Source of the DNA: Actinomycetota bacterium
GTDB lineage: Bacteria; Actinomycetota; Actinomycetes; Actinomycetales; Microbacteriaceae
DNA length: 6,122 nucleotides
Assembly (NCBI GenBank): GCA_009702405.1
Contig: WLIC01000039.1
Coordinates: forward strand, 1 to 6,122
Reading direction: 5' to 3'
Numbering within the stretch: the stretch's first letter is position 1; each line of letters begins with the position of its first letter. Positions 3,435 through 6,122 of the stretch are shown in pieces. A program made the position numbers and the translations under genes. The notes beneath the pieces were generated by a model. The model was not told the origin of the DNA, made no database searches, and worked only from the letters and a program-made list of their open reading frames with translations.

Positions 3435-3522
3435 GGAGAATTAGCCTAGTGGCCTATGGCGCCAGCTTGGAAAGTTGGTTGGGTGCAAGCCCTCGGGGGT
3501 TCGAATCCCCCGTTCTCCGCCA
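3435..3522 (+). tRNA. tRNA-Ser (anticodon GGA), with encoded CCA
   Basis: A class II tRNA reading UCC and UCU codons. The acceptor GGAGAAT (3435-3441) pairs with GTTCTCC (3512-3518), ending in a T-G wobble pair. The discriminator is G 3519 and the CCA is encoded at 3520-3522. The anticodon stem CCAGC/GTTGG closes the loop TTGGAAA, giving GGA at 3469-3471. A long variable arm (GGG-TGCAA-GCCC region) marks the serine class. The T arm is five G-C pairs around TTCGAAT. All parts are intact. The location near ffs and dnaX fits the known neighbourhood of actinobacterial tRNA-Ser genes. Confidence 0.97.
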
Positions 3523-3570: not shown

Positions 3571-3605
3571 ATTCGGAATAATCTATGCGGAAAGGTTTTT
3601 CGCTA

Positions 3606-3974
3606 ATGAATATTGCACTTTGGATCGCTGCTTCTGCTTTAGCTCTGTTTATGCTCGCTGCTGGATTTATGAAGGTCTCACGACCAATCCAAGAAATTAG
3701 AAAAATGCCATGGGCAGCGAAAATGCCTGCAAACTACATTCGTTTGATTGGTTCAGCTGAGATCCTCGGTGCGCTAGGCCTTGTCCTTCCGCTAGCCACA
3801 GGAATGGCAGTCATTCTGACCCCAGTTGCCGCTCTATGCCTCGCTGTTTTGATGGCAGGTGCAACTATTACTCACATACGAATCAAGGACCCAAAGTCAG
3901 CTGCCCTAACAACAACTGTTCTAATGGCGTTAGCTCTATTTGTTGCTTTCGGAAGATTTAGTGGTCTCAACTAG
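3606..3974 (+). CDS. DoxX-like family integral membrane protein
   Basis: A 122-residue membrane protein of the DoxX-like superfamily (DoxX_2 type), whose biochemical roles are mostly undefined. Four hydrophobic helices lie near residues 4-21, 46-64, 67-87 and 98-116. Family marks are the opening MNIALWI, the first-helix end AAGFMKV, and RLIGSAEILGALGLVLP at the start of helix 2. The ATG at 3606 is preferred because MNIALWI is the usual family N-terminus and AAAGG lies upstream, though 10 nt away. An in-frame ATG at 3585 would add MRKGFSL. The length is normal for the family. It follows tRNA-Ser and the inverted repeat on the same strand, with no gene behind it in the same direction except the small gene at 4054. 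Confidence 0.85.
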   Translation: MNIALWIAASALALFMLAAGFMKVSRPIQEIRKMPWAAKMPANYIRLIGSAEILGALGLVLPLATGMAVILTPVAALCLAVLMAGATITHIRIKDPKSAALTTTVLMALALFVAFGRFSGLN

Positions 3975-4037: not shown

Positions 4038-4206
4038 AAACTACAATCAACCTGTGGCTGCTAACCCAAACAAACTAATCGAACTAAAGATAGCTGGACA
4101 CTATCGGATGATTCCAGTCTGGGCTAGTGAGTTGGACTTTGAAGTTAGACCTGGTCAAAAGTTTGACGCTAGGGCTTGGAAGTATTGGAAGCCTGTGCTG
4201 CTTTTG
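4038..4206 (+). repeat. direct repeat copy 1 (about 86% identical to copy 2)
   Basis: By eye this 169-bp stretch aligns without gaps to 5954-6122 with 23 mismatches. The first 46 coding bases (4054-4099) are identical and mismatches gather after that. The mismatch pattern is codon-like (see the small gene at 4054), so this is a duplicated gene and not an insertion sequence. The homology may continue past the right edge of the window. Confidence 0.9.
4042..4047 (+). promoter_or_regulatory. putative -10 box of leaderless small gene, copy 1
   Basis: TACAAT ends exactly 6 nt before the GTG at 4054, so the transcript would start at or near the first codon. No ribosome binding site is present. The same hexamer and spacing recur in copy 2. 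No -35 hexamer is evident. Confidence 0.5.
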
Positions 4207-4230
4207 TTGAATGAAGTCCCTAGCGTATAA
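4054..4230 (+). CDS. small conserved protein of unknown function, copy 1 (58 aa)
   Basis: I do not recognise this family. The frame opens with GTG after an in-frame stop at 4036-4038 and gives a 58-residue protein beginning (M)AANPNKLIELKIAG, with a core YRMIPVWASELDFEVRPG, then QKFDARAWKYWKPVLLL, ending NEVPSV. It has no signal peptide or membrane helix and looks like a compact, basic and aromatic-rich soluble protein. Evidence that it is coding: compared with the copy at 5970, 16 codons differ and 12 of these are synonymous, and 47 of 51 residues are the same. The start rests on the conserved TACAAT-N6-GTG context. Its stop overlaps the end of the convergent tetR gene by 11 bp. The different last residues might mean truncation, but copy 2 is cut off, so this cannot be judged. 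Confidence 0.68.
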   Translation: MAANPNKLIELKIAGHYRMIPVWASELDFEVRPGQKFDARAWKYWKPVLLLLNEVPSV

Positions 4231-4804
4231 AAGCCTTGATCAGTTGGTCAACATCCTTGTCGATTGAATTTTGCCATTTCATGCCTGTCTTGTGAGATCT
4301 CAAGGATATGAGCCCATGTAATGACACCCAGAGCTGTATTGCTCTTTGGATTGAAGCTTTGTCTGGCTTCGGTTTATTCGAAATAAGAATCGCTAGCTGA
4401 GTAATCAAATGCAAGCCTGGTCTCTCATCCGGTAATGGCATGTCCATTTCATCGGTGGTTTCGAATAACAGCTGATAGCTGCCTGGATTGGTAAGACCCC
4501 AGGACACATATGCCCTGGCAAGTTTTTCTAACTTCAACTCTGAGTTTGGAGCCCCTGCTATTGCCTTATTGAGCTTCTCCTCAAGTTCAGCAAAAAGAAA
4601 CCTGATTACCTCGATGAATAGTTCATCTTGAGATTCAAAATGTCTGTATGCGGCACCTGGAGCTACGCCAGCTTTTTTAGCGATGTCACGCATTGTCGGT
4701 AACTTGATCGTTCGTGGGTTACTAGCCAATTCCGCAGCAACTTCGACAAGAGTTGTCTTCAGCCCGATTGACTTTGGGCCACCTGGTTTTTTCCTGCTAG
4801 CCAC
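4220..4804 (-). CDS. TetR/AcrR-family transcriptional regulator with WHG-type C-terminal domain
   Basis: A 194-residue ligand-responsive DNA-binding regulator, probably a repressor dimer. The N-terminal helix-turn-helix is at about residues 36-60 (PTMRDIAKKAGVAPGAAYRH, then FESQDELF), a textbook TetR recognition region with the Y-x-H-F signature. The ligand domain from about residue 84 has YVSWGLTNPGSYQLLFE and RAIQLWVSLHG, matching the TetR_C_33 (WHG) class; WVSLHG is at 159-164. The start is GTG at 4804; no other in-frame start lies between it and the operators, and AAAGGA sits 11 nt upstream. It is divergent from the exported YHYH gene, with two palindromic sites in between, so self-regulation and control of that gene are likely. 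The ligand is unknown. Its 3' end overlaps the small gene at 4054 by 11 bp. Confidence 0.92.
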   Translation of the reverse strand: MASRKKPGGPKSIGLKTTLVEVAAELASNPRTIKLPTMRDIAKKAGVAPGAAYRHFESQDELFIEVIRFLFAELEEKLNKAIAGAPNSELKLEKLARAYVSWGLTNPGSYQLLFETTDEMDMPLPDERPGLHLITQLAILISNKPKPDKASIQRAIQLWVSLHGLISLRSHKTGMKWQNSIDKDVDQLIKAFIR

Positions 4805-4827
4805 GTTTAGGTGAATCCTTTCATTTC

Positions 4828-4843
4828 GTGAACAAGTGTATAC
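4828..4843. promoter_or_regulatory. putative TetR operator, imperfect site
   Basis: GTGAACA-AG-TGTATAC has the same left arm as the stronger site at 4853 and matches its right arm at 5 of 7 positions. The two site centres are 25 bp apart. It overlaps TATACT (4839-4844), a possible -10 box for the plus-strand gene, so binding would block transcription. Confidence 0.6.
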
Positions 4844-4852
4844 TCGTAATTA

Positions 4853-4868
4853 GTGAACACTTGTTCAC
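4853..4868. promoter_or_regulatory. putative TetR operator, perfect palindrome
   Basis: GTGAACACTTGTTCAC has perfect 7-bp arms (GTGAACA and TGTTCAC) around a 2-bp centre, the size and symmetry of a TetR-family operator. It lies in the 88-bp gap between the divergent tetR and YHYH genes. Looked at another way, GTGAACAAGTG (4828-4838) and CACTTGTTCAC (4858-4868) are exact complements, so both sites share the same half-sites. Confidence 0.75.
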
Positions 4869-4892
4869 ATTACTAACAGTAAGGTCTCGAAA

Positions 4893-5891
4893 ATGAGTAA
4901 GAAATCCAGACTCTTTGTCATATCTGCAGCTGCCGTCGTAGCCATTGCGGTGGGTACATTTATAGCCTTAGGAAGTTCAACATCGGTGGTTCCGCTAGGA
5001 GCTAAGAGCCTGGATGTATCTCTGTTTAAGGAAGGTTCTCTGGCAAACCCGATCACCGAAGTTGATTGCACCTTATCTAACGGAACAAAAACTACTTGTT
5101 ACAAAGTGACTGTTACTGGAATTCCAGTTGATACCAAGATTGGCCCATTCTGCCCAGAGACAACCAAAACTTCCGCTACAGATGCTGGTATTTGGCTGGA
5201 TGGTAGCAAGATTTATGACGTGGACGGCAAATTCATTCTCGATCTCAGCACGATCTACGGTGATGCCAAGTGGAAACTGTATCGAGATGACGGTCAAGTA
5301 AATGTGACTGACACCAAAGAAGCATTTCAAGGTGCTGCAAAACCTGATGTTGAAGAGGCATACAAGTATCACTGTGTTGAGGGTAAGTACGAATGGACAA
5401 ACACTGGTAAAGCTGTCCCCATCACCGCTCTAATACCTAAGAACCCAGTAAGCACATCTGGGTCTACTACCACTCAGGGTAAAGACCTTGGAGTTACCTT
5501 GAATGGACTAGTGATTTCAGGATCTGCTCCTGTGGATGCAATTCTTGGCGCATACACAATCGCTGCATTTGATGATTGTGGCGGACACTTCAATCCGATA
5601 GAGGGTTACCACCTTCACGCCTATACAGACTGTCAAGGTTCAACATATGGGTCTCAAATAGATGATCCAAATGCTGAAACCAAAATCATTGGTTACGCAA
5701 TGGACGGTGTAGCTGTATTCGCCCCACTAGCTCATGACACAACAATCAAGCTTGATGAGTGCAATGGTAGAACAACCACTAAAGATGGTTACCACTACTA
5801 CGCCCAGTCGCCTGAATTGAATAAAGTCGTGAAATGTTTCAAGGGCTTAGCAGTTCAAGACACCTCCAGCAAACCCGGTCCACCAAAATAG
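4893..5891 (+). CDS. exported YHYH-domain protein
   Basis: A 332-residue extracytoplasmic protein. Residues 5-27 form an N-terminal hydrophobic segment after KKSR, either an uncleaved anchor or a signal peptide. The YHYH domain occupies about residues 195-318. It has GGHFNPIEGYHLHAYTDC (230-247), the family-typical GYAMDGVAVFAP (267-278), and GYHYYAQSPE with KCFKG (299-318). His 232, 240, 242 and 301 are candidate metal-binding residues by analogy with the family's His-rich motif; this is inference. Eight cysteines (59, 69, 87, 161, 229, 247, 290, 315) suggest disulfides outside the cytoplasm. The N-terminal 160 residues are not recognised. The ATG follows AAGG by 8 nt. It lies divergent to tetR across two operators and is probably repressed by it. 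Family function is unestablished. Confidence 0.85.
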   Translation: MSKKSRLFVISAAAVVAIAVGTFIALGSSTSVVPLGAKSLDVSLFKEGSLANPITEVDCTLSNGTKTTCYKVTVTGIPVDTKIGPFCPETTKTSATDAGIWLDGSKIYDVDGKFILDLSTIYGDAKWKLYRDDGQVNVTDTKEAFQGAAKPDVEEAYKYHCVEGKYEWTNTGKAVPITALIPKNPVSTSGSTTTQGKDLGVTLNGLVISGSAPVDAILGAYTIAAFDDCGGHFNPIEGYHLHAYTDCQGSTYGSQIDDPNAETKIIGYAMDGVAVFAPLAHDTTIKLDECNGRTTTKDGYHYYAQSPELNKVVKCFKGLAVQDTSSKPGPPK

Positions 5892-5957
5892 CAAACCCTA
5901 ATCTCTATTTGTGTTTTAGGTGTACTACTCTCATGATTCTTTAGTGCAACTGGAAAC

Positions 5958-5963
5958 TACAAT
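5958..5963 (+). promoter_or_regulatory. putative -10 box of leaderless small gene, copy 2
   Basis: TACAAT ends 6 nt before the GTG at 5970, identical in sequence and spacing to copy 1, while the flanking bases upstream of AAACTACAAT differ between copies. No ribosome binding site or clear -35 is visible. Confidence 0.5.
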
Positions 5964-5969
5964 GAATCT

Positions 5970-6122
5970 GTGGCTGCTAACCCAAACAAACTAATCGAAC
6001 TAAAGATAGCTGGACGTTATCGGATGATTCCGATCTGGGCTACAGAGTTAAGTTTTGAAGTCAGACCTGGTCAGAAATTTGATGCTAGAGCCTGGAAGTA
6101 TTGGAAGCCTGTTCTACTGCTA
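5970..6122 (+). CDS. small conserved protein of unknown function, copy 2 (partial, cut by right edge)
   Basis: This is a paralogue of the gene at 4054. The open 51 codons start with GTG and differ from copy 1 at only four residues (H/R, V/I, S/T and D/S), three of them mild changes. An in-frame TGA lies upstream at 5934-5936, and the GTG is the first start after it. The shared motifs are LIELKIAG, YRMIP, FEVRPGQ and FDARAWKYWKP. The C-terminus lies outside the window, so its true length, and whether copy 1 is truncated, are open. Confidence 0.68.
   Translation, partial: MAANPNKLIELKIAGRYRMIPIWATELSFEVRPGQKFDARAWKYWKPVLLL

Follow-up and report, generated by a model that had tools for sequence, protein, structure and literature searches.

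A gene fragment and a continuous 5′ end of an HExxH protein gene very probably flank a tetR–YHYH pair next to an actinobacterial tRNA-Ser

The stretch analysed here (the window) comprises 6,122 nucleotides of contig WLIC01000039.1, from the Microbacteriaceae assembly GCA_009702405.1. Its upstream part carries, in order, dnaX, two zinc-ribbon open reading frames (ORFs), a 262-aa gene, a 361-aa ORF and tRNA-Ser(GGA). Beyond the tRNA gene lie a DoxX-like gene, a first copy of a short repeated sequence (copy 1), a tetR gene, a YHYH gene and a second copy (copy 2) that reaches the window edge. An earlier reading of this DNA (the original prediction) had recognized a tetR–YHYH pair bracketed by the copies, and Pfam confirmed both genes. 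We consider here how the two copies relate to a longer gene that encodes an HExxH motif, hereafter the HExxH gene.

The copies are direct repeats at positions 4038–4206 and 5954–6122, with 23 mismatches in 169 nt, as originally predicted. In gene numbering, 22 of the mismatches fall up to base +151 and one further at +153. The overall difference is 14%, the longest mismatch-free stretch is 48 nt, and an automated repeat search paired the copies over 165 nt at 88%. Recounted in the frame of the GTG starts at 4054 and 5970, codons 2–51 differ at 21 nt and in 16 codons, 12 of them silently. This leaves four amino-acid changes and 47 of 51 identical residues, start residue counted, again as predicted. 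When 21 random substitutions were placed on the copy 2 core, none of 100,000 simulations gave four or fewer amino-acid changes (mean 14.2).

The original prediction took this pattern for a family of small proteins. A homologue search, which it had named as a check, did find homologues, and the stretch is coding in the GTG frame. However, the same reading frame spans 174–183 residues in all five homologous loci, and 84 database proteins match at full family length (E up to 0.001). All three database matches to the 58-aa piece encoded by copy 1 continue beyond codon 55 into downstream sequence of the family. The claimed small-protein family thereby becomes a gene fragment.

Codons 1–55 of copy 1 have 96% identity to residues 1–55 of the 177-aa protein of locus L001, and the sequences diverge thereafter. 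Three unrelated codons and a stop follow at the 3′ end of tetR, whose stop codon (4220–4222) coincides with the break point. The break cuts the helix of residues 39–58, and the HExxH motif falls in the part absent from copy 1. Fifteen of the 16 nt differences between copy 1 and L001 are silent. The copy 2 region, in turn, has 92% DNA identity to L001 4980–5153; its final 69 nt are identical to L001, and it follows the family sequence up to the window edge. Copy 1 is most likely what truncation has left of a different allele of the HExxH gene. Copy 2 is presumably the start of the resident gene, which would continue whole beyond position 6122. Taken together, we regard it as very probable that both are the 5′ end of one gene, as a remnant and a resident start (Table 1).

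Table 1. Features of the tRNA-Ser spot and loci with both tetR and a YHYH gene
Feature	Position	Strand	Details
tRNA-Ser (anticodon GGA)	3435..3522	+	left landmark of the variable spot; ARAGORN
DoxX-like membrane protein gene	3585..3974	+	cargo between tRNA and copy 1; Pfam DoxX_2, E 1.7e-22
TACAAT, -10-like element of copy 1	4042..4047	+	six bases ahead of GTG, leaderless type
Copy 1 ORF, 58 codons	4054..4230	+	codons 1–55 correspond to the 5′ end of the 177-codon HExxH gene; last three codons unrelated
TetR-family regulator	4220..4804	-	Pfam TetR_N, TetR_C_33; relatives in L055, L056
Inverted repeat between tetR and YHYH gene	4828..4868	.	17-nt arms, 88% complementary; candidate TetR operator
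YHYH-domain protein gene	4893..5891	+	Pfam YHYH, E 1.5e-11; ~70% DNA identity in L019/L020
TACAAT, -10-like element of copy 2	5958..5963	+	six bases ahead of GTG
Copy 2, first 51 codons of HExxH gene	5970..6122	+	frame open to window edge, runs off mid-gene
tetR–YHYH co-occurrence loci	window 4220-5891; L055 802-8062; L056 723-3488	divergent	same contig

We surveyed the HExxH gene in 67 genomes of the genus, 299 sampled genomes of the family and 394 of the class. Thirteen of the 67 genus genomes have a match, always a single one: seven at 74–100% identity, five at 46–47%, these 12 being full-length, and a C-terminal remnant in G065. None of the 67 contains a free-standing N-terminal piece. The wider sampling gave matches in two family and two class genomes, and no match occurred in phage, plasmid and viral collections. 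The G065 remnant (L039 775–876) covers residues 143–176, lies about 4 kb past the same tRNA-Ser, and is the second broken copy seen in this genus. The relatives at 46–47% identity (L013–L017) form a second subfamily, with HExxHLPKDDAHSDxW in place of HExxHALSSGYHGDPW.

The original prediction also ascribed the excess of silent changes to selection on the protein, and proposed the ratio of nonsynonymous to synonymous substitution rates (dN/dS) as a check. NG86 values are 0.01–0.19 in 14 of 15 pairs with copy 1 or copy 2; for the pair of copy 1 and L011, dS is not estimable. Coding constraint is thus real, by these ratios and by the simulations, but it is no proof that the truncated piece itself is selected. 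Because the homologues are full-length and the 67 genus genomes lack a free-standing N-terminal piece, selection on that piece cannot be inferred from substitutions. Nor is the front end the more constrained part: across the 21 pairs formed by the seven full-length relatives, the first 50 codons have a median pN/pS of 0.196, as against 0.145 for the remaining codons. We caution that an excess of silent changes between short repeats indicates coding ancestry and does not prove that a short piece is a gene.

A TANNNT element about 12 bp ahead of the start is described as characteristic of leaderless genes, which are frequent in Actinobacteria (PMC3160421). The same spacing, 12 bases from the first T of TANNNT and exactly six bases between element and start, occurs here in eight of nine homologous copies, in promoters that are predicted. 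These are copy 1, copy 2, L001, L002, L003, L011, L012 and L005 (counted from its ATG); L004 is the exception, and the divergent L013–L017 were not scored. The gene copies are therefore likely to start leaderless, and the absence of a ribosome binding site is as expected from the position of TANNNT. Gene callers may pick a wrong start for a gene that lacks this site. In L002 (4698–5378), the longest ORF of the HExxH gene is 226 aa and begins inside tRNA-Ser.

The two copies and their silent changes would also suit a genuine 51-residue protein family present twice, but given the full-length relatives at five of five loci and in the database we consider this extremely improbable. Alternatively, copy 1 could still work as a free-standing 58-residue peptide, expressed from a leaderless promoter of its own, and modulate the full-length protein by serving, for instance, as a decoy or inhibitor. 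Such a role would agree with its open frame, the retained TACAAT-N6-GTG, the almost wholly silent differences to L001 and the outcome of the simulations. Yet recent truncation of a full-length gene also predicts silent changes, every match in the 67 genus genomes is single and none N-terminal only, and the piece stops partway through a helix, short of the HExxH motif; a working copy 1 is thus very unlikely. A more specific version is a shade less probable again: a partial duplication would have left a leaderless 58-residue piece, kept as a decoy or regulator of a copy 2 enzyme from a new WLM/SprT-like metalloprotease family.

A further alternative concerns the cargo. The tetR–YHYH pair could be a small mobile element that integrates at one specific site in the gene's 5′ end and supplies a replacement for that end, copy 1 being the displaced host end and copy 2 the restored gene. 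We consider this highly unlikely too, if slightly less so than a working copy 1. In its favour, the cargo is bounded exactly by a displaced 5′ end on one side and a continuous one on the other, and the content of the spot varies among relatives. Against an element, a Pfam scan of eight window proteins yielded neither an integrase nor a transposase, and the last 12, 14 and 16 nt of the tRNA each occur once in the window (exact matches only). The absence of the gene from the phage, plasmid and viral collections also counts against it, as does the 14% difference between copies, though their 48-nt identity might represent a core for such insertion.

A truncated allele beside a resident gene is consistent with how the variable sites are arranged. 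Sites that differ among copy 1, copy 2 and L001 fall in blocks (9 runs versus 16.8 expected, P 6e-4, a value that is optimistic because neighbouring sites are not independent). The start is common to both copies, the middle mostly to copy 1 and L001, and the end to copy 2 and L001. From +93 to +153, copy 1 stands apart from both others at 11 sites, all silent. The blocks and silent differences fit recombined alleles of a selected full-length gene, one of them recently truncated.

We propose that the variable spot past tRNA-Ser(GGA) received cargo DNA through recombination in which the shared 5′ end of the HExxH gene served as the homologous anchor, the other end being joined illegitimately. 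This would have left a partial duplicate, with copy 1 cut after codon 55 where the tetR–YHYH cargo begins. Partial duplicates of this kind would result from homology-facilitated illegitimate recombination, in which one end is joined through homology and the other illegitimately (PMC3240628, PMC5361080). As the route here, we hold it about evenly balanced against other recombination routes, and the order of events is likewise proposed. Orphan-gene arrays of type VI secretion system (T6SS) immunity genes, attributed to this process in PMC5361080, are alike in that new cargo comes in beside an anchor of shared sequence while part of the former locus stays behind. The fragment left in the present case is a 5′ end at a tRNA-Ser spot, and both mechanisms are deduced.

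The spot is of interest for its cargo beside broken or duplicated neighbour pieces. The same tRNA-Ser occurs in L001, L002, L003 and L005. From it to the start of the HExxH gene is a distance of 36, 91 and 96 bp in L001, L002 and L003, respectively, with no gene between, and DUF1990 and Nramp genes intervene in L005. The L004 contig, on which the tRNA is not present, starts with the post-tRNA segment and carries TetR, monooxygenase-like, epimerase-like (by eye) and weakly glyoxalase-like ORFs before the HExxH gene. No tRNA-Ser match was found near L011 (3.2 kb) or L012 (10 kb, L052); the genome of L012 (G008) carries it on a different contig. In L005, copies of the post-tRNA segment with 87% identity (2772–2845 and 3622–3696) flank the DUF1990 gene beside the tRNA, and this repeat holds a hairpin that resembles a terminator by eye.

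Wss1/WLM and SprT-type metalloproteases have a role in DNA–protein crosslink repair, and jannalysin/selecase count among the archaeal minigluzincins. The product of the HExxH gene in Rhodoluna-like bacteria, an uncharacterized protein of some 177 residues, has a predicted gluzincin/WLM-like metallopeptidase fold and may have peptidase activity. In 30 aligned sequences, the zinc motif residues H104, E105 and H108 are invariant, as are H115 and D117 (spacing HExxH-x6-H), which are candidates for the third metal ligand. The archaeal minigluzincins have 104–109 residues versus 177 here, and align at 13–15% identity over 93–95 residues, about half of the model. Abylysin is called a minigluzincin in PMC4559962, from which we also draw the likeness to Wss1/WLM-domain and SprT-type proteases; the family is 13–16% identical to these. 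The alignment of the model to 5xbn begins at residue 22 and leaves the N-terminal strands unmatched. Pfam gave no match of any kind to the L001 and L005 proteins (E up to 1), and the L001 protein has no NCBIfam match at curated cut-offs (one unrelated sub-threshold row, E 0.13). The predicted placement of the core outside named families therefore stands for Pfam and NCBIfam. An unannotated HExxH family with a Wss1-like predicted fold in these small-genome bacteria is of interest in itself.

The remaining genes may be described briefly. The inverted repeat is a candidate TetR operator by its position in the divergent promoter region of tetR and the YHYH gene; no repeat equal to it was found in L055 or L056 by the pattern used. 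The YHYH protein has a hydrophobic N-terminus (by eye) and is possibly exported. Divergent tetR and YHYH genes also share a contig in genus genomes G051 and G017, ~5.8 and 1.3 kb apart, and the two may travel or be regulated together. Of the two adjoining small ORFs near dnaX (359–1135), the second contains a double zinc ribbon (Pfam DZR) and the first is weakly similar; ORFs like this pair also occur in L003 and L005.
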